A program made the translations under genes and the position numbers. The notes below the pieces were generated by a model. The model did no database searches and was not told where the DNA came from. It saw only the letters and a program-made list of their open reading frames with translations. A stretch of 64,000 nt of DNA from Roseicyclus marinus (GTDB taxonomy: Bacteria > Pseudomonadota > Alphaproteobacteria > Rhodobacterales > Rhodobacteraceae), in the NCBI RefSeq assembly GCF_036322625.1, contig NZ_AP027266.1, forward strand, positions 313,001 to 377,000, written 5' to 3'. Positions 10,218-23,307 of the stretch are shown in pieces. Position 1 is the first letter of the stretch. The number at the start of each line of letters is the position of its first letter.

Positions 10218-11288
10218 ATGAACCTCGATCAGCTGAAATCGGATTGGCTGGGGCGCATCGCCGCCGCGACGGACGAGGGCGCGCTGGAAGAGCTGCGCGT
10301 CGCGGCGCTCGGCAAGAAGGGCGAGATCAGCCTCAAGATGCGCGACCTGGGCGGCATGTCCCCCGAGGAGCGGCAGGTGGCGGGCCCCGCGCTCAACGCG
10401 CTGAAGGACGAGGTGACGACCGCCATCGCCGCCAAGAAGGTCGCGCTGGGCGATGCGGCGCTGGACGAGCGGCTGAAAGCCGAATGGCTGGACGTGACGC
10501 TGCCCGCGCGGCATCGGCGGGTCGGCACGATCCACCCCGTGTCCCAGGTGACCGAAGAGGTCACGGCGATTTTCGCCGATATGGGCTTTGCCGTGGCCGA
10601 AGGGCCGCAGATCGAGACGGATTGGTACAATTTCGACGCGCTGAACATTCCGGGCCACCATCCCGCGCGCGCCGAGATGGATACGTTCTACACCCATCGC
10701 GCCGAGGGCGATGACCGCCCGCCGCATGTGCTGCGCACGCATACGAGCCCCGTGCAGATCCGGCACATGGAGGCGCATGGCGCGCCCGTGCGCGTGATCG
10801 CGCCGGGCCGCGTCTATCGCGCGGATTACGACCAGACGCATACGCCGATGTTCCACCAGGTCGAGGGGCTGGCGATCGACCGCGATATCTCCATGGCCAA
10901 TCTGAAATGGGTGCTGGAGGAGTTTTTCAGCGCCTATTTCGGCACGAAGGTCCGCACGCGGTTCCGCGCCTCGCATTTCCCCTTCACCGAGCCCTCGGCC
11001 GAGGTCGACATCCAGTGTTCGTGGGAAGGCGGCACCGTCAAGGTCGGCGAAGGGTCCGATTGGCTGGAGGTTCTGGGATCGGGGATGGTGCATCCCAAGG
11101 TCTTGCAGGCGGGCGGGATCGATCCGGCGGAGTGGCAGGGTTTCGCATTCGGCATGGGGATCGACCGGATCGCGATGCTGAAATACGGGATCCCGGATCT
11201 GCGGGCGTTCTTTGATTCAGACCTGCGGTGGCTGAGGCATTACGGGTTTGCCGCGTTGCAGGTGCCGGCGGTGCATTCGGGAGTGTGA
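10218..11288 (+). CDS. pheS: Phenylalanyl-tRNA synthetase alpha subunit
   Basis: 356 residues. The N-terminal coiled-coil part (1-90) is followed by the class II catalytic core, with [13 protein letters not shown] and [19 protein letters not shown] (motif 2) and [22 protein letters not shown] (motif 3). It charges tRNA-Phe together with the beta subunit PheT in an alpha2-beta2 enzyme. Unusually there is no pheT downstream; a repeat cluster and an antiporter gene follow, so pheT must lie outside the window. The ATG at 10218 is preceded by GGGGCCGGAGC. Confidence 0.97.
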
Positions 11289-11294
11289 CCCGTC

Positions 11295-11377
11295 GGGTGG
11301 GCAATGTGCCCACCATTGCCGGTGATGGGATCTGCGTGGTGGGTTTCACCCACCCTACGGGTTTTCGGTGGTGCGCC
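11295..11377 (+). repeat. Palindromic intergenic repeat, copy 1
   Basis: 83-bp unit repeated at 11445-11527 with one mismatch. It contains two perfect small hairpins, GGTGGGC-AATGT-GCCCACC and GGTGGGT-TTC-ACCCACC. It starts 6 bp after the pheS stop. Confidence 0.9.
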
Positions 11378-11444
11378 GTGACAGGCACACCCTACCCAAG
11401 GGAGGGATGGGATGCGGTGGATGTCCTGCTGGCGGTGATCGGTG

Positions 11445-11527
11445 GGGTGGGCAATGTGCCCACCATTGCCGTTGATGGGATCTGCGTGGTGGGTTTCACC
11501 CACCCTACGGGTTTTCGGTGGTGCGCC
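11445..11527 (+). repeat. Palindromic intergenic repeat, copy 2
   Basis: Second 83-bp copy, exactly 150 bp after the first and identical except for G to T at 11472. It has the same two hairpins and runs straight into the inverted repeat at 11521-11576. Confidence 0.9.
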
Positions 11528-13516: not shown

Positions 13517-13597
13517 GCGCGAAAGCTGCGGCGGGCGGGCTTTGCGAGGGCCGGATTTTGACAGCGGCGCGGTCCGGCCCCGATGCTGGAAGGGCAG

Positions 13598-13705
13598 GGC
13601 ATTTAGGGTTCCGGCGCGCCGAAAGGTGCGGGTCAGGTCCGAGAAATGCCGCCGCGCGGGCCAAATCCCCCGCGGTACACGGCGGGACAAAATCCCGGGA
13701 GAGCA
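13598..13705 (+). ncRNA. Guanidine-I riboswitch (ykkC type)
   Basis: The conserved ykkC blocks occur in order: TTAGGGTTCCG (13603-13613), then CAGGTCCGAGAAA (13634-13646), then ACACGGCGGGACAAAA (13677-13692) and TCCCGGGAGAG. P1 is perfect: GGCATTT (13598-13604) with AAATGCC (13644-13650). Inside it a stem CGCGCC / GGTGCG is capped by a GAAA loop. A further stem CCGCG / CGCGG precedes the ACACGG block, and CGGGA / TCCCG flank the CAAAA loop. This aptamer class binds guanidinium and turns on guanidine export or degradation genes. The match is by eye to the known consensus; a covariance-model score was not computed. Confidence 0.9.
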
Positions 13706-13746
13706 CTGCGCCAAGATCAGGTTCGGCCGCTCCCTGAACATATTCC

Positions 13747-13783
13747 CCGGTCGGACATTTGGACATTCGCATCCGATCGGAGG
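13747..13783 (+). promoter_or_regulatory. Candidate expression platform masking the ribosome site
   Basis: CCGGTCGGA (13747-13755) can pair with TCCGATCGG (13772-13780), 9 bp with one G-U. With A81 bulged, the CC at 13745-13746 can also pair with GG at 13782-13783, so the GGAGG ribosome site (13779-13783) of the first operon gene is hidden. This suggests translational control downstream of the guanidine aptamer. Inference from pairing only. Confidence 0.5.
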
Positions 13784-13791
13784 AACCGACG

Positions 13792-14856
13792 ATGACCAGA
13801 CTTGCCCTAGCCACCACCACAGCACTGACGCTCGCCTTGTCGCCCGGATGGGCCGTTGCGCAGGAGCGGACGGAGTTTCGCGTCGCATGGTCGATCTACG
13901 TGGGCTGGATGCCCTGGGGCTACCTGGAGGAGAGCGGCATCATGGATGCCTGGGCCGAGCGCTACGGGATCGATGTCGAGATCGTGCAGATCAACGATTA
14001 CGTGGAATCGATCAACCTGTATACGGCGGGCGAATTCGACGGGGTGTCGGCCACCAACATGGATACGCTGTCGATCCCGGCGGGGTCGGGGGTGGATACG
14101 ACCGCGTTGATCGTGGGGGATTTCTCGAACGGGAATGACGCCGTGATCCTGAAGGGGGAGGGCGGATTGGCCGATCTGGCCGGGATGCCCGTGAACCTGG
14201 TGGAATTGTCGGTGTCCCATTACCTGCTTGCGCGCGCGCTGGAGAGCGTGGGGTTGGAGGAGCGCGACCTGGCGGGTGTCATCAACACCTCGGATGCCGA
14301 CATGATCGCGGCCTTCCAGACGGAGGATGTGCAGGCGGTGGTGACGTGGAACCCGCTGGTGTCCACGATCGCGGAAAGCCCTGAGGCCAATATCCTGTTC
14401 ACCTCGGCCGATATTCCGGGCGAGATCATCGACATGATGGTGGTCAACACCGAGGTGCTGGAGGCCAACCCCGATTTCGGCCGCGCGCTGGTGGGGGCCT
14501 GGTACGAGCTGATGGCGATCATGGCCTCCGACACGCCCGAGGGGATCGCGGCGCGCACGGCAATGGCCGAGGCGTCGGGTACGGATCTGGCGGGATATGA
14601 GGCGCAGCTGGCCTCGACCCAGATGTTCTGGGAGGCGGCGGATGCGGTGGCCTTTGTCCAGAGCCCGGAATTGCCCGAGACGATGGTGAGTGTCGCCGAA
14701 TTCCTGTTCGAGCGCGGCATCCTGGGCGAGGGCGCGCCGAGCGCGGATTTCGTGGGCATCGAATATCCGGGCGGCGTGGTGACGGGCGATCCGGGCAATA
14801 TCCGGCTGCGGTTCGATCCGAGCTACATGCAGATGGCCGCCGACGGGGCGCTGTAA
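13792..14856 (+). CDS. ABC transporter periplasmic binding protein, guanidine/urea-carboxylase-type
   Basis: 354 residues from the ATG at 13792 (GGAGG 8 bp before it). Residues 1-24 form a signal peptide (LALSPGWAVAQ), so the protein is periplasmic. The mature sequence (FRVAWSIYVGWMPWGYLEESG, then NDYVESINLYTAGEFDGVSATNMDTLSIPAGSGVDTTAL in two halves) belongs to the NMT1/SsuA-like binding-protein group described next to urea carboxylase genes, now linked to guanidine. It is the first gene after a guanidine-I riboswitch and is followed by the permease and ATPase, so guanidine is the best guess for its ligand. The ligand itself is inferred, not shown. Confidence 0.85.
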   Translation: MTRLALATTTALTLALSPGWAVAQERTEFRVAWSIYVGWMPWGYLEESGIMDAWAERYGIDVEIVQINDYVESINLYTAGEFDGVSATNMDTLSIPAGSGVDTTALIVGDFSNGNDAVILKGEGGLADLAGMPVNLVELSVSHYLLARALESVGLEERDLAGVINTSDADMIAAFQTEDVQAVVTWNPLVSTIAESPEANILFTSADIPGEIIDMMVVNTEVLEANPDFGRALVGAWYELMAIMASDTPEGIAARTAMAEASGTDLAGYEAQLASTQMFWEAADAVAFVQSPELPETMVSVAEFLFERGILGEGAPSADFVGIEYPGGVVTGDPGNIRLRFDPSYMQMAADGAL

Positions 14857-14883
14857 CGGCGGCGCGCGCGGGAGCGGCGGATC

Positions 14884-15696
14884 ATGCGGTGGATCAACCG
14901 GCATCCGGGGCCCGCGGGGCGGGTGGCGCTTGTCGCCTTGCCCTTTGTCCTTGTGGGGCTGGCCTATGCCGCGGCATCGGCGGCGCGGTTGGCGGAAAAC
15001 CCGCAAGACCGCATCTTGCCGTCTTTCGAGACGCTGGGGGCGACCGCCTGGCGGCTGTTGACGGAAGAGGACCGCCGGTCGGGCGAGATCCTGTTCTGGG
15101 GTGATACGCTGTCGAGCCTGTCGCTGTTGGGCGCAGGCGTCGGCATCGCGGCGCTGATCGGTCTGTGCCTTGGCCTTGCCATCGGACTGGTGCCGGTGGT
15201 GCGGACGGGGTTGCAGGGCTTTGTCGCGGTTCTGTCGATGATCCCGCCCCTGGCGCTGCTGCCGATCCTGTTCATCACGCTGGGGGTGGGGGATGCGGCC
15301 AAGATCGCGCTGATTGCCATCGGCATCACGCCCTTTTTGATCCGCGACCTGTCGGCGCGCACGCTGGAATTGCCGCAAGAGCAATTGGTGAAGGCGCAGA
15401 CACTGGGGGCCAGCACGTTGGCCATCGCGGTATCGGTGGCGCTGCCCCAGATCATGCCGCGCCTGATTGGGGCGGTCAGGCTGTCGCTCGGGCCCGCGTG
15501 GCTGTTTTTGATCGCGGCGGAGGCGGTCGCGTCGGAAGCGGGGCTGGGATACCGGATCTTCCTGGTGCGGCGGTTTCTCGCGATGGATGTGATCCTGACC
15601 TATGTGGCGTGGATCACGGTTTTGGCTTTCCTGATCGACTGGGCGCTGATGCGGCTGTCGCGCTGGGCCTATCCTTGGGCGGAGGCGCGGGGATGA
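14884..15696 (+). CDS. ABC transporter permease, guanidine/urea-carboxylase-type
   Basis: 270 residues with about six membrane helices and the EAA loop LEQEQ-like LPQEQLVKAQTLGAS typical of the SsuC/TauC/NrtB permease group. N-terminal basic residues (MRWINRHPG) precede helix 1. It forms the channel of the importer with the binding protein 27 bp upstream and the ATPase whose start overlaps its stop (ATGA at 15693-15696). Inner membrane. Its expression should follow the riboswitch upstream of the operon. Confidence 0.87.
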   Translation: MRWINRHPGPAGRVALVALPFVLVGLAYAAASAARLAENPQDRILPSFETLGATAWRLLTEEDRRSGEILFWGDTLSSLSLLGAGVGIAALIGLCLGLAIGLVPVVRTGLQGFVAVLSMIPPLALLPILFITLGVGDAAKIALIAIGITPFLIRDLSARTLELPQEQLVKAQTLGASTLAIAVSVALPQIMPRLIGAVRLSLGPAWLFLIAAEAVASEAGLGYRIFLVRRFLAMDVILTYVAWITVLAFLIDWALMRLSRWAYPWAEARG

Positions 15697-16499
15697 GCCT
15701 GGTCGAGGTCAGGGACATTTTCCAGAGCTACGGGGCGCGGCCGATCCTCGAGCGGGTGAACCTGAGCGTGGGCGAGGGGGAATTCATCTCGATCGTCGGC
15801 GCGTCGGGCTGCGGCAAGTCCACCTTCCTGCGGCTTTTGCTGGATCAGGAGCGGCCCACGCGCGGGCAGATCACGGTGGATGGCGCGCCCCTGAAGGGGG
15901 AGCCGGACCGGTCGCGGGGCATCGTGTTCCAGCGCTATTCGGTGTTTCCGCATCTGAGCGTGCGGGACAATATCGTCGCCGCCGAAGGGTTGCAGCGGCC
16001 CTTGGGGCGGCTTTTCGGGCAAGCCCTCAGCGCCGCGCGCAGGCGGGCGGATGCGGTGCTGGAGCGGATCGGGTTGGCGCATGTGGCGGGGCAATACCCG
16101 GCGGCGCTGTCGGGGGGCATGCAGCAGCGGCTGGCCATCGCGCAGGCATTGGCCGCCAAGCCGCGTATCTTGCTGCTCGACGAGCCATTCGGCGCGCTTG
16201 ATCCCGGCACGCGGGAGCAGATGCACCGATTTCTGCTCGATCTGCGGGGCGAGGTGCGGATGACCGTCTTCATGGTCACCCATGATCTGCGCGAGGCCTT
16301 CAAGCTGGGCGACCGGGTCGTGGTTTTCGACAAGACCCGCTGGGACCCGCATGACCCCACAGCCTTTGGCGCGACGATCACCTACGATTTCGACGCGCGC
16401 AACGGCGGCATCCCCTATCAACTGAAAGAGGACCAAGATGTATTTCCTGACCCCGCGCCGCAGCCGGTCGCATCATCCGGGCAACAGGCCCGACCGTGA
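15693..16499 (+). CDS. ABC transporter ATPase, guanidine/urea-carboxylase-type
   Basis: 268 residues. Walker A is GASGCGKS, the Q-loop FQRYSVFPHLS, the signature LSGGMQQRL, Walker B ILLLDEPFGALD and the switch VTHD. It energises the guanidine-type importer. The usable start is the ATG at 15693, overlapping the permease stop. Its C-terminus (ATITYDFDARNGGIPYQLKED and on) is longer than in SsuB/TauB and is characteristic of the urea-carboxylase-region ATPases; the last 62 bp are also the first 62 bp of the hydrolase gene in another frame. Confidence 0.88.
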   Translation: MSLVEVRDIFQSYGARPILERVNLSVGEGEFISIVGASGCGKSTFLRLLLDQERPTRGQITVDGAPLKGEPDRSRGIVFQRYSVFPHLSVRDNIVAAEGLQRPLGRLFGQALSAARRRADAVLERIGLAHVAGQYPAALSGGMQQRLAIAQALAAKPRILLLDEPFGALDPGTREQMHRFLLDLRGEVRMTVFMVTHDLREAFKLGDRVVVFDKTRWDPHDPTAFGATITYDFDARNGGIPYQLKEDQDVFPDPAPQPVASSGQQARP

Positions 16500-17682
16500 C
16501 CGCCGGGCGCATCACCCCGACCTGACCAAACTGCTGGGGTGGAAGGCGATGCGCGCGGAGGCCGATATTCCCGGCACGCGCTGGGACGAGGAACGGCGCT
16601 GGGCGCTGAGGATGGGGCTGACCGGGGCGGACAGTATCGAGGACAAGTCGATCCCCACCTTTGCGCGGGGGGAGCTGCCGCATTACGCGGGCATAAACAC
16701 CTTTCTGAAAGCGCCCTATGCCGAGGATGTGCTGGAGGTTCAGCATTACGATGCCACGGTTCTGGGCATCCCCTTCGACGGCGGTACGACCTATCGCCCA
16801 GGCACGAGGTTCGGGCCGCAGGGCGTGCGCAAGATCAGCGCGCTTTACACGCCCTACAATTACGAGATGGGCGTCGATCTGCGCGAACAGATGACGCTGT
16901 GCGATGCGGGCGACGTGTTCACCATTCCCGCCAATCTTGAAAAGTCTTTCGACCAGATCAGCCGGGCGGTGAGCCACGTGTTCAGTTCCGGCAGCTTCCC
17001 GGTGATGATCGGGGGGGATCATTCCATCGGCTTTCCCTGCGTGCGGGGCATCGCGGAATGCACGTCGAAAAAGATCGGGATCGTGCATTTCGACCGTCAT
17101 GCCGACATCCAGGAGAAGGATCTGGACGAGCGGATGCACACGACACCGTGGTTCCATTCGACGCTGTTGCCCAATGTGCCGGCCAAGAACCTTGTCCAGA
17201 TCGGGATCGGCGGCTGGCAGGTGCCGCGCGAGGCGGTGAAGGTCGCCCGCGAGCGGGAGACCAACATCATCACCATGTCGGACATGGAGAAGATGGGCGT
17301 GGACAAGACCGCCGAGATGGCGCTGGAGATGGCATGGGACGGGGTGGACATGGTCTACATGTCGTTCGACATCGACAGCATCGATTGCGGGTTCGTGCCC
17401 GGCACGGGCTGGCCGGAACCGGGCGGTTTCCTGCCGCGCGAGGCGCTGGCGCTGGCATCGAAAGTCGCGGCGGAGGGTCTGTGCGGGATGGAGCTGGTCG
17501 AGGTGTCGCCGCCCTATGACACGAGCGACATCACCGCGCTGATGGGGACGCGGGTCATCGTGGATGTGCTGGGCAGCATGGTGGCCCATGGCAAGATGGG
17601 CGCGCACAAGCGCCATATCGACAAGCCCGTCAGCATCCCGCATGGCGCATTCGAGGGGCGGAGGTGGTCCAATGCCCCATGA
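16438..17682 (+). CDS. gdmH: Guanidine hydrolase-like ureohydrolase (GdmH type)
   Basis: 414 residues of the arginase/agmatinase superfamily with a long N-terminal extension (1-105) not found in ordinary agmatinases. Metal ligands are visible: GGDHS (His195), HFDRHAD (Asp219, His221, Asp223) and SFDIDSID (Asp311, Asp313). The Arg in FDRHAD in place of the usual Ala, and the GTGWPEPGG motif, match what I recall of the nickel-dependent guanidine hydrolase GdmH of Synechocystis; the extension is also shared. The reaction would give urea and ammonia. The riboswitch and transporter upstream support this. The ATG at 16438 has AGAGGA before it and overlaps the ATPase gene by 62 bp. Substrate and metal are inferred; agmatine or guanidino acids are the alternatives. 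Confidence 0.82.
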   Translation: MYFLTPRRSRSHHPGNRPDRDRRAHHPDLTKLLGWKAMRAEADIPGTRWDEERRWALRMGLTGADSIEDKSIPTFARGELPHYAGINTFLKAPYAEDVLEVQHYDATVLGIPFDGGTTYRPGTRFGPQGVRKISALYTPYNYEMGVDLREQMTLCDAGDVFTIPANLEKSFDQISRAVSHVFSSGSFPVMIGGDHSIGFPCVRGIAECTSKKIGIVHFDRHADIQEKDLDERMHTTPWFHSTLLPNVPAKNLVQIGIGGWQVPREAVKVARERETNIITMSDMEKMGVDKTAEMALEMAWDGVDMVYMSFDIDSIDCGFVPGTGWPEPGGFLPREALALASKVAAEGLCGMELVEVSPPYDTSDITALMGTRVIVDVLGSMVAHGKMGAHKRHIDKPVSIPHGAFEGRRWSNAP

Positions 17683-18133
17683 CCATCACGACCATCATCA
17701 CCACCACGGGCATGGGCATAGTCATGGGCATAGTCATGGGCATGGGCACAACCACGCCCATGCCGATCACCTGCATTCGCATCTGACCCCCGAGGATGCG
17801 GCGGCCGATCTGCAGGTTCTGACCGCGCAATTCATCGACGGCTTCGTCAATGCCCGCGACAAGGCCGCCTATCTGCGGCTGGCGGGCGTGCCGCTGGAAC
17901 GGCCCGGCAAGGCGGGGCGGGGGGCGCTGAAGCTGGTGGATGTGGAGCTGAGGACCGAATGGCAGGTCGGCACGGCCTCGCCGTCCTTCGGGTCGCGCGA
18001 GTTGAGCTATCTGCCCTTTCCGGGGGAGATGATCCGCGAGCGGACCAACATGGCGCTGGTCTATGTCTCGATGGAGGAAAAGGACCTGCTCGATATCCGC
18101 GATTTCCTGTCGGGGCGGATGGCGGAGGGTTAG
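17672..18133 (+). CDS. His-rich protein, candidate nickel-delivery factor
   Basis: 153 residues starting at an ATG (GGAGGTGG upstream) that overlaps the hydrolase stop by 11 bp. The first 38 residues contain 20 histidines, mostly as HG, HS and HD repeats and one run of five. The rest (38-153) is a compact domain, with EDAAADLQVLTAQFIDGFVN and SFGSRELSYLPFPGEMIRER, that I do not recognise; it has no Cys. No signal peptide, so it is cytoplasmic. His-rich tails are used by HypB, UreE, CooJ and similar proteins to hold Ni2+, and known guanidine hydrolases need HypA/HypB-like nickel chaperones. Neither type is here, so this protein may do the job. Functional role is inference. Confidence 0.8.
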   Translation: MPHDHHDHHHHHGHGHSHGHSHGHGHNHAHADHLHSHLTPEDAAADLQVLTAQFIDGFVNARDKAAYLRLAGVPLERPGKAGRGALKLVDVELRTEWQVGTASPSFGSRELSYLPFPGEMIRERTNMALVYVSMEEKDLLDIRDFLSGRMAEG

Positions 18134-19392: not shown

Positions 19393-19426
19393 TTTCGCAG
19401 TTCGTGCGGGCATTTCGCAGTTCGTG
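19393..19426 (+). promoter_or_regulatory. LytTR-type direct repeat upstream of coxM
   Basis: TTTCGCAGTTCGTG occurs at 19393-19406 and again at 19413-19426, 20 bp apart, so the two copies lie on one face of the helix. The core GCAGTTCGT fits 8 of 9 positions of the LytTR consensus [TA][AC][CA]GTTN[AG][TG]. It starts 2 bp after the coxC stop and about 100 bp before coxM. Likely binding site for CoxC or a paralogue. Confidence 0.7.
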
Positions 19427-19525
19427 AACCGCGCATCCCGCGTCGTTCATTTCCCGCTTTTGGGGCGGGATGGCGGGTCTACACCTTCCCGGGGTGCGTC
19501 AATAGCGCGCACGAGGGAGGAAAAC

Positions 19526-20380
19526 ATGATACCTGCACGGTTCGAGTACCATCGACCGGCAGACGTGGCGTCGGCGCTTGCGCTCCTGTCGGAGCATGGC
19601 GACGAGGCACGCGTTCTGGCCGGTGGCCACAGCCTGATCCCGATGATGAAGCTGCGGATGGCCGCGGTTTCGCATCTGATCGATCTTCAGGACATCAAGG
19701 ACCTGTCCGGCATCCGCATCGAGGGCGGGCGCGTCACCATCGGGGCGATGACGACCCAGCACGAGCTGATCGAGAATGCCGCGCTGGCCGAGGCAGCCCC
19801 CATCCTGCGCGAGGCGGCGTTGCAGATCGCCGATCCGCAGGTGCGCTACATGGGCACGGTGGGCGGCAATGTCGCCAATGGCGATCCGGGCAACGACATG
19901 CCGGGGTTGATGCAATGCCTGGGTGCGGTGCTGCATCTGACCGGGCCCGAGGGCAGCCGCGAGGTCGCGGCCCGCGACTATTACGAGGCGGCCTACATGA
20001 CCGCGCGGGAGGATGACGAGATCCTGACCGCCATTTCCTTTGACGCGCCCATGGGCGGCTACGCCTACGAAAAGCAGAAGCGCAAGATCGGCGATTACGC
20101 GACCGCCGCCTGTGCCGCGCTGGTGACGATGGAGGGCGGGCGCTGCACCGCGGCCTCGATCGCGATGACCAATCTGAGCGACACGCCGATCTGGTCGGAA
20201 GAGGCAGGCGCAGCGCTGATCGGCACGTCTTGCGACAAGGCGGCGGTGGATGCCGCCGTGGCTGCGGCCAGTGCCGCGATCAACCCGACCGAGGACAATC
20301 GCGGCCCGGTCGATTTCAAGCGGCATGTCGCCGCCGTCATCATCCGCCGCGCCATCGAGCGCGCCGTATCGCGCGCCTGA
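19526..20380 (+). CDS. coxM: Carbon monoxide dehydrogenase medium subunit (FAD)
   Basis: 284 residues from the ATG at 19526, preceded by GGGAGG. The FAD-binding motifs of the CoxM family are present: VLAGGHSLIPMMKLR (32-46 region) and the IGAMTTQHEL and GGNVANGDPGNDMPG segments. It passes electrons from the iron-sulfur subunit to the quinone pool through FAD. The start at 19424 seen in the longer frame would read through the operator region and is rejected. First structural gene of the cox operon, 15 bp before coxS. Confidence 0.96.
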   Translation: MIPARFEYHRPADVASALALLSEHGDEARVLAGGHSLIPMMKLRMAAVSHLIDLQDIKDLSGIRIEGGRVTIGAMTTQHELIENAALAEAAPILREAALQIADPQVRYMGTVGGNVANGDPGNDMPGLMQCLGAVLHLTGPEGSREVAARDYYEAAYMTAREDDEILTAISFDAPMGGYAYEKQKRKIGDYATAACAALVTMEGGRCTAASIAMTNLSDTPIWSEEAGAALIGTSCDKAAVDAAVAAASAAINPTEDNRGPVDFKRHVAAVIIRRAIERAVSRA

Positions 20381-20395
20381 AGGGGAGGGCAAGCC

Positions 20396-20883
<488 letters not shown>

Positions 20884-20887
<4 letters not shown>

Positions 20888-23307
20888 CCGACCAGACCCC
20901 GATCAGCCGCGAGGACCGCGTCGAGAAGCTCAAGGGCGTGGGTTCGCAGCGCAAGCGCGTGGAGGATGCGCGCTTTACCCAGGGCAAGGGCAATTATGTC
21001 GATGACATCAAGCTGCCCGGCATGCTGTTCGGCGATTTCGTCCGCAGCCCCTATGCCCATGCGCGGATCAAGGCGATCCATACCGAGGAGGCGTTGAAGG
21101 TTCCGGGCGTTCTGGCCGTTCTGACGGCGGCCGATCTTGCGCCGCTCGGCCTGCACTGGATGCCGACGCTTGCGGGCGACAAGCAGATGGTGCTGGCCGA
21201 TGGCAAGGTTCTGTACCAGGGGCAGGAGGTCGCCTTTGTCGTGGCGACCGACCGTTATGCCGCCGCCGACGGGATCGAGGCCGTCGAGGTGGATTACGAG
21301 GAACTGCCGGTGGTCGTGGACCCGTTCAAGGCGCTGGCGCCCGATGCGCCCGTCCTGCGCGAGGACCTGGAAGGCAAGATGACCGGGGCCCATGGGCCGC
21401 GCAAGCATCACAACCATATCTTCACCTGGGAACAGGGCGACAAGGACGCGACCGAGGCGGTGTTGGCCGGCGCGGACGTGGTGGCCGAAGAGATGGTCTA
21501 TTACCACCGCACCCATCCCTGCCCGCTGGAGCCCTGCGGCTGTGTCGCGAGCATGGACAAGGTGAACGGCAAGCTGACGCTTTACGGCACGTTCCAGGCA
21601 CCCCATGCGATCCGCACGGTCGTGTCGCTGATCTCGGGGATCGAAGAGCACAACATCCGCGTCATCAGCCCCGATATCGGTGGCGGTTTCGGCAACAAGG
21701 TCGGGGCCTATCCGGGCTATGTCTGTTCGGTCGTGGCCTCCATCGTCACCGGCAAGCCGGTGAAATGGGTCGAGGACCGGATGGACAACCTGATGACCAC
21801 GGCCTTTGCCCGCGATTACTGGATGAAGGGCAAGATCGCGGCCACCAAGGAGGGCAAGATCACAGGGCTTTGGTGCCATGTGACGGCGGACCATGGCGGC
21901 TTTGATGCCTGTGCCGACCCGACCAAGTTCCCCGCCGGGTTCTTCAACATCTGCACCGGGTCCTATGACATCCCGACCGCCTATCTGGCTGTCGATGGGG
22001 TCTATACCAACAAGGCACCGGGCGGCGTGGCCTATCGCTGTTCGTTCCGCGTGACGGAAGCGGCCTATTTCATCGAGCGCATGATCGAGATCCTGGCCAT
22101 CGAGCTGGACATGGACGCGGCCGAGCTGCGGCGGATCAACTTCATCCGGGCGGACCAGTTCCCCTATCACTCGGCGCTGGGCTGGGAATACGACAGCGGC
22201 GATTACCACACGGCCTGGGACAAGGCGCTGAAGGCGGTCGATTACGAGGGGCTGCGCAAGGAGCAGGCCGAGCGCGTCGAAGCCTTCAAGCGGGGTGAGA
22301 CGCGCAAGCTGCTGGGGATCGGTCTGACCCATTTCACGGAGATCGTGGGGGCCGGGCCGGTCAAGAATTGCGATATCCTTGGGCTGGGGATGTTCGACAG
22401 CTGCGAGATCCGCATCCATCCCACCGGATCGGCCATCGCGCGGTTGGGGACCATCAGCCAGGGCCAGGGGCATGCGACGACATTCGCCCAGATCCTTGCG
22501 ACCGAGATCGGCCTGCCCGCGGATTCGATCACGGTCGAGGAGGGCGACACCGATACCGCGCCCTATGGTCTGGGCACCTATGGCTCGCGGTCTACCCCGG
22601 TTGCGGGGGCGGCCACGGCCATGGCGGGCCGCAAGATCCGCGCCAAGGCGCAGATGATCGCGGCCTACCTGCTCGAGGTCCATGACGACGATCTGGAATG
22701 GGATGTCGACCGTTTCGTGGTCAAGGGCGCGCCCGAGCGCTTCAAGACCATGAAGGAGATCGCCTTTGCCTCCTACAACCAGGCCATTCCAGGGCTGGAG
22801 CCGGGGCTTGAGGCGGTCAGCTATTACGACCCGCCGAACATGACCTATCCCTTCGGGGCCTATATCTGCGTGATGGAGATCGACGTGGATACGGGCGTGC
22901 ACGAGATCCGGCAATTCTATGCGCTGGATGATTGCGGCACCCGGATCAACCCGATGATCATCGAGGGGCAGGTGCATGGCGGTCTGACCGAGGCGCTGGC
23001 CATCGCGATGGGCCAGGAGATCGCCTATGACGAGCTGGGCAACGTCAAGACCGGCACGTTGATGGATTTCTTCGTGCCGACGGCCTGGGAAACGCCCCAT
23101 TACACGACCGATCACACCACGACGCCGTCACCCCATCACCCGATCGGGGCCAAGGGCGTGGGCGAAAGCCCGAACGTGGGCGGCGTGCCGGCGTTTTCGA
23201 ATGCGGTCCATGATGCTTTCCGCGCCTTTGGGCTGCGGCAGAGCCACATGCCGCATGACCATTGGCGGATCTGGAAGATCGCCAACGGTTTGGGCCTGCA
23301 TGGGTGA
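20884..23307 (+). CDS. coxL: Carbon monoxide dehydrogenase large subunit, form I
   Basis: 807 residues, close to the 809 of Oligotropha CoxL. It carries the form I active-site loop AYRCSFR with Cys386, which binds the Cu of the Mo-S-Cu centre; form II enzymes have a different loop. Other molybdenum-hydroxylase motifs are GGGFGNK and the C-terminal [10 protein letters not shown] with the catalytic Glu. The enzyme oxidises CO with water to CO2, two protons and two electrons. This makes CO oxidation capacity likely rather than a general xanthine-oxidase-like activity. Starts at the ATG overlapping coxS. Confidence 0.97.

Follow-up and report, generated by a model that had tools for sequence, protein, structure and literature searches.

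The window analysed here is a stretch of 64,000 nucleotides (nt) from Roseicyclus marinus (contig NZ_AP027266.1, positions 313,001 to 377,000), and its subject is a putative locus for guanidine uptake and hydrolysis, headed by a riboswitch and closed by a histidine (His)-rich partner protein. The features, numbered from the first letter of the window, are the following.

13592 to 13703, plus strand: guanidine-I (ykkC) riboswitch aptamer; RF00442, full model 1-107, 80.3 bits against a gathering score of 63, E value 1.1e-12
13792 to 14856, plus strand: ATP-binding cassette (ABC) transporter substrate-binding protein, a predicted guanidine binder of the TIGR03427 type; 527.9 bits against an equivalog cut-off of 333.9
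14884 to 15696, plus strand: ABC transporter permease; PF00528, 60 bits against a cut-off of 26.4
15693 to 16499, plus strand: ABC transporter ATPase; PF00005, 122.2 bits against a cut-off of 25
16438 to 17682, plus strand: predicted GdmH-type nickel guanidinase, by similarity to solved guanidinases, tree and active-site tryptophan (Trp)
17672 to 18133, plus strand: His-rich partner protein of 153 residues, predicted to supply the guanidinase with nickel; found in the same genomes as gdmH and next to it
17672 to 17782, plus strand: His-rich N-terminal tail of the partner, residues 1-37, by sequence; predicted local distance difference test score (pLDDT) below 50 at residues 25-37
17783 to 18130, plus strand: conserved core of the partner, residues 38-153; the core alone retrieves the family; pLDDT block means of 80-95 over residues 41-150

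An Rfam scan of the 64 kb window returned this aptamer alone above the gathering score. The five open reading frames that follow it are intact and co-directional; neighbouring genes share 4 nt (permease and ATPase), 62 nt (ATPase and enzyme) and 11 nt (enzyme and His-rich protein). The riboswitch and the five genes are likely to form one operon. The original prediction, made from the letters of the window, had described a ykkC-type aptamer followed by a closely packed binding protein, permease, ATPase, arginase-family enzyme and His-rich protein; this layout is borne out, and both the FDRHAD motif and the long N-terminal extension ascribed to the enzyme are present. The His-rich partner was named in the title of that prediction and was given no role there. 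Nothing else in the locus is as unusual.

What does the enzyme do? Measured against solved chains, it scores 551 bits with the guanidinase of Synechocystis (7esr, 7oi1) and 540 bits with that of Nitrospira inopinata (9fek); the next solved chain is proclavaminate amidinohydrolase with 175 bits, and all others reach 175 bits at most. In a tree of 102 rows, from which L019 and L021 were left out as fragments, the window enzyme and Synechocystis GdmH group together (support 95/91). A branch of 7.8 (100/100) parts the window enzyme from guanidinobutyrase, guanidinopropionase and proclavaminate amidinohydrolase, and two distant ureohydrolase reading frames of the window's own genome also lie beyond it; the order of these outside rows is unsure owing to long branches. 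The placement with characterised GdmH and apart from guanidinobutyrase, on which the original prediction depended, is thus upheld by the tree; a characterised agmatinase is absent from its rows, and on this side the prediction is supported by profile, the enzyme scoring 170.7 against a cut-off of 174.3 and 206.7 against a cut-off of 302 with the NCBIfam agmatinase models. The GGDH, FDRH and SFD-D motifs, which hold metal ligands in the arginase family, occur in all three aligned guanidinase sequences (as SFDID, and as SFDVD in N. inopinata). The Trp of the motif GTGWPEPGG, residue 325 of the window enzyme, aligns with the active-site Trp of both guanidinases, and the other three chains shown have threonine (Thr) at this position. 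It corresponds to residues 307 and 315 of the two guanidinase chain records, which we take to be Trp305 of Synechocystis and Trp313 of N. inopinata, with an offset of two residues (numbers from PMC11410670). This Trp is described as a gate that opens or blocks the way into the guanidinase active site (PMC11410670). The N-terminal extension, with its RRxHHPD motif, is found again in three of four aligned relatives, which supports the start at 16438; in one annotated relative (L136) the start of the enzyme gene has been placed later.

We hold with high confidence that the window enzyme is a guanidinase, the predicted hydrolysis of guanidine resting on its clade and on the active-site Trp. It might otherwise be an ordinary agmatinase or guanidinobutyrase, for which the link to the riboswitch would be secondary. 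Pfam places the enzyme in the arginase family and related records carry the label agmatinase family protein, both of which agree with this alternative; the scores below the agmatinase cut-offs, the company of the guanidinases in the tree and at the Trp position, and the riboswitch that precedes gdmH in 42 of 46 partner genomes speak against it and make it highly improbable.

The genes around the predicted guanidinase suggest how guanidine might be taken up and used. Guanidinium bound by the aptamer, itself identified by covariance model, would permit expression of the operon, as the Rfam family leads one to expect. The binding protein, permease and ATPase would then bring guanidine in, a substrate suggested by their families: the binding protein is the single match in the genome to TIGR03427, a family of binding proteins of a putative urea/guanidine ABC transporter. 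Import of guanidine by this ABC transporter is, in our judgement, quite probable. The GdmH-type enzyme would split guanidine into urea and ammonium, and a urease, the gene for which lies elsewhere in the genome, would in turn split urea. The urease alpha subunit is matched with 945 bits, and ureE, ureF and ureG, read by eye, stand beside it, so that urea could be used. The UreE-like reading frame carries a His-rich end. A search of the genome for the cobW/HypB/UreG family gave three places, of which the small one is taken to be UreG on account of its neighbours ureE and ureF. Urea carboxylase yielded nothing over cut-off in the genome, the 12 pieces below cut-off covering at most 442 of 1201 positions each, in keeping with the earlier claim that the genes of that pathway are absent. 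Judged from gene content, the route from guanidine through urea to ammonia appears complete on paper.

The partner protein itself is matched by no Pfam family at an E value of 1 and by no NCBIfam family. Its relatives, 56 of them scanned singly against Pfam, gave weak and scattered matches, the best (E 0.017) to ZrgA, and comparison of the predicted core with PDB chains returned no convincing fold match. The protein has many homologues: a direct search found 1514 proteins at an E value of 0.001 or below and a profile of the 56 relatives found 2653, numbers to which the tail, being part of both queries, may have contributed some matches. Among the 120 matches listed for each search, those with a source name are annotated as hypothetical or uncharacterised. 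The tail carries at least seven His in 27 of 29 partners, with starts chosen by script.

Across genomes the enzyme and the partner are paired beyond chance. In a survey of 149 genomes of the family, with the partner core alone as query and an enzyme match defined at an E value of 1e-60 or better, the partner occurs in 20 genomes and the enzyme in 20, and these are the same 20, each of another genus. In 19 of them the two genes share a contig and are no more than about 0.65 kb apart; in the remaining genome (G385) each sits at the edge of a separate contig. A class-wide sample of 289 genomes holds the partner in eight and the enzyme in ten. All seven enzymes of at least 74% identity in this sample, that of the window included, have an adjoining partner, and the other three (53-59% identity) have none. 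The sole partner copy lacking an enzyme match is a broken one, in genome G125. We further compared 96 enzyme loci, comprising the best 80 loci of a genome-contig scan, seven plasmid loci and nine loci from the class search. The first row of the scan's query was an enzyme with Thr in place of the Trp (L020), the resulting sample is neither complete nor even, and enzymes with Thr or serine (Ser) at this position were counted apart from the guanidinases. The partner lies downstream of gdmH in 29 of the 96 (20 of 80 genome-contig, 3 of 7 plasmid and 6 of 9 class loci), with a gap of at most 298 nt, and every one of these 29 enzymes has the active-site Trp. Together with the window enzyme they make up the 30 tree rows with a partner, all of which fall into one clade (100/97). 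Where a host is named, it belongs to the Alphaproteobacteria (Ancylobacter, Sinorhizobium, Bradyrhizobium, Roseibium, Stappia, Labrenzia, Bauldia and related genera). The nearest partner-less enzymes, five in number, belong to Gammaproteobacteria or Acidithiobacillus and share 72-74% identity, so that the partner appears to have been acquired once, at the root of the alphaproteobacterial guanidinases, and not to have been lost within the sample. The plasmid collection supplied three partner records, each with gdmH adjoining, in a search insensitive to the distant type, which failed to pick up four enzyme-bearing S. fredii plasmids.

The riboswitch accompanies this pair. The 42 matches to RF00442 mentioned above stand before gdmH and share its strand (22 of 26 survey partner genomes, all 20 genome-contig partner loci), and 40 of them exceed the gathering score; the aptamer also precedes gdmH in the five gammaproteobacterial-type loci, in one of them below the gathering score. 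In eight loci, from Ancylobacter and other Xanthobacteraceae, the riboswitch stands 167-198 nt before gdmH and the partner still follows. This distance leaves no space for transporter genes, which indicates that the partner goes with the enzyme and not with the transporter. Riboswitch, gdmH and partner are the minimal unit in these eight loci, which make the strongest case for a partner that acts on behalf of the enzyme.

What service might the partner perform? GdmH of Synechocystis is reported to require Ni2+-delivery proteins encoded in its own operon (PMC12186494), and hypA and hypB are the genes named in gdmH operons of the Synechocystis type (PMC8390497). In the single-contig genome of the window a search for HypA (PF01155) gave no match; the same search finds a match in 7 of 14 control genomes, in four of them over cut-off. 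We extended it to 79 genomes, made up of 29 survey genomes and those of 50 of the 80 genome-contig loci. HypA is not over cut-off in 25 of the 46 partner genomes (17 of 26 survey, 8 of 20 genome-contig), drafts included. Across the 29 partner loci, motif and BLAST searches of the flanks (about 7 kb on each side for 22 loci, a shorter stretch on one side for L131, and 1.5 kb for six class loci) detected no HypA- or HypB-like gene. A HypA gene and a HypB-like gene do lie directly downstream of gdmH in L081 and L089, by motif and BLAST and, for HypA, by Pfam as well, and both kinds of gene stand upstream of a Thr/Ser-type enzyme in L058. Partner and hypA-hypB were not seen together at one gdmH in the loci examined. 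The slot behind gdmH is thus occupied by hypA-hypB in some lineages and by the His-rich partner in another. This pattern, together with the His tail and the dependence of the enzyme class on nickel, makes nickel supply the most likely role of the partner. Its tail would collect Ni2+, and its folded core would dock on unloaded GdmH and hand the metal over, doing the job that the hypA/hypB-type nickel-delivery proteins perform in Synechocystis.

Several observations weigh against this proposal. HypA is present somewhere in 21 of the 46 partner genomes, each time either far from gdmH (over 250 kb) or on a different contig. Among 63 Trp-type enzymes 34 have no partner, and just two of those have an adjoining hypA and hypB-like gene; this leaves 32 of 63 with neither loader beside gdmH (for L098 and L104 the sequence downstream is incomplete), and most partner-less Trp-type enzymes seem to manage without a neighbouring loader. 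The N. inopinata guanidinase has no known nickel loader, its mode of loading being described as unclear (PMC11410670). The window's own genome encodes UreE, itself His-tailed, and UreG (by eye), which could load GdmH. In two distant partners, L015 (2694-3050, 4 His) and L017 (2672-3004, 1 His), the tail is nearly lost and the core kept, so that the tail cannot be a general requirement. Seven core residues are invariant (F54, D63, A71, L88, P104, Y113 and P117), and these offer no obvious set of metal ligands. Four partner genomes lack an upstream riboswitch under stricter filters, three having no match and one a match on another contig. Four of the 32 Trp-type enzymes with neither loader, all of Verrucomicrobiota (L082, L088, L104, L111), show 9-11 His within 40 residues before or at the aligned start, their starts being unsettled. 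The near-tailless partners, the core without a ligand set, the loci without a loader and the presence of UreE and UreG bring the nickel role close to an even call, and we lean narrowly towards a part for the partner in supplying nickel to GdmH.

Two other explanations have to be set beside it. The partner might be a nickel store or buffer instead of a dedicated loader, with loading that is spontaneous or carried out by UreE and UreG of the urease system. The urease genes of this genome, comprising the alpha subunit and, by eye, UreE with its His-rich end, UreF and UreG, would suit such an arrangement, as would the uptake of nickel by the N. inopinata guanidinase without a known chaperone and the 32 loci that have neither loader; a general store, however, does not need strict linkage to gdmH, the conserved folded core suggests a specific contact, and the one copy found apart from an enzyme is broken. 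We consider a store unlikely. Alternatively, the partner could be an accessory of GdmH unrelated to metal, a stabilising or regulatory subunit whose His tail is incidental. Retention of the core in L015 and L017, where the tail has almost gone, and the lack of His and cysteine among the invariant core residues are what this explanation would predict, but the His count of the tail is maintained in 27 of 29 partners, the studied enzymes of the class are nickel-dependent, and the N. inopinata guanidinase is active as a homohexamer; such an accessory appears improbable. Nickel supply is accordingly the role we retain for the partner, and the reading of the whole locus, a riboswitch-headed operon for guanidine uptake and hydrolysis with a nickel-supplying partner, is one that we modestly favour. 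A broader proposal makes the partner the first member of a new metallochaperone family for nickel, with a His-rich tail attached to a fold that gave no relative in the comparison. This family would have replaced HypA/HypB once in alphaproteobacterial guanidinase operons and been kept with the enzyme since; we advance the idea tentatively, as somewhat more doubtful than not.

A further group of ureohydrolases deserves mention. Nineteen rows (L020, L050-L066, L078), mostly from Proteobacteria, form one clade, have Thr or Ser in place of the guanidinase Trp and are without a partner. In these enzymes an insertion rich in His, for example HHDHSHMHDVGLDNC, separates TTPW from NLVQ, and in L064 a gene resembling a HupE/UreJ nickel transporter (by eye) comes after the enzyme. 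RF00442 was found in 4 of 14 genomes searched from this group, with none within 12 kb upstream on the strand of the enzyme. Possibly these are nickel enzymes that bring their own His segment and act on another substrate. The broken partner in G125 (L007, 1501-1767) is a core remnant of 60% identity with an internal stop, in a genome with no guanidinase match; it adjoins a gene that resembles, by eye, an FtsX-type permease. Elsewhere in the window, two 93-nt copies that are 96% identical (11285-11377 and 11435-11527, 150 nt apart) are flanked by a pheS-like gene on one side and a gene for a Kef-like antiporter on the other (both by eye) and resemble an intergenic repeat element, and three reading frames at 19424-23307 resemble, by eye, the medium, small and large subunits of a carbon-monoxide-dehydrogenase-type enzyme.

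How does the locus compare with known systems? Guanidinase has been recognised only recently. The nickel proteins UreE and HypB resemble the partner in having a His-rich end on a folded domain; they differ from it in that the partner has no Pfam match and no convincing fold match. The operons of the metformin hydrolase MefH/DmgH, with hypA, hypB and hupE, also place accessory genes dedicated to nickel beside those of nickel ureohydrolases (PMC11399263); as described there, those enzymes have two subunits and another substrate, and they are accompanied by HypA/HypB rather than by a His-rich partner. The guanidinase of N. inopinata shares riboswitch control, the N-terminal extension and the active-site Trp, and the available part of its description places no nickel-chaperone genes beside it; it is served by an APC permease instead of an ABC transporter, and the same part mentions no His-rich partner (PMC11410670). 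Closest is the gdmH operon of Synechocystis PCC 6803 (Sll1077, the nickel-delivery genes and sll1080-1082), in which a guanidine-I riboswitch, an SsuA-type ABC transporter and GdmH are reported in one operon (PMC8390497, PMC12186494). Riboswitch-controlled guanidinase operons with ABC transporters are therefore already known. The nickel-delivery proteins of Synechocystis, which we take to be those called GhaA and GhaB, mark the difference: the window operon lacks HypA/HypB, its genome lacks a HypA match, and a His-rich protein without a Pfam match stands behind gdmH. Such a partner is not mentioned in the accessible portions of the literature on guanidinase operons, although an earlier mention may exist elsewhere, and we regard it as the new part of the locus. 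It supplies a concrete candidate gene for the nickel loading of guanidinase, could provide a route to the fully loaded enzyme, and would give a proposed function to a large protein family that Pfam does not cover (1514 matches, part of which may be due to the His tail). If it does represent a new metallochaperone family, it would explain how the guanidinases of this clade are supplied with nickel without HypA and HypB.

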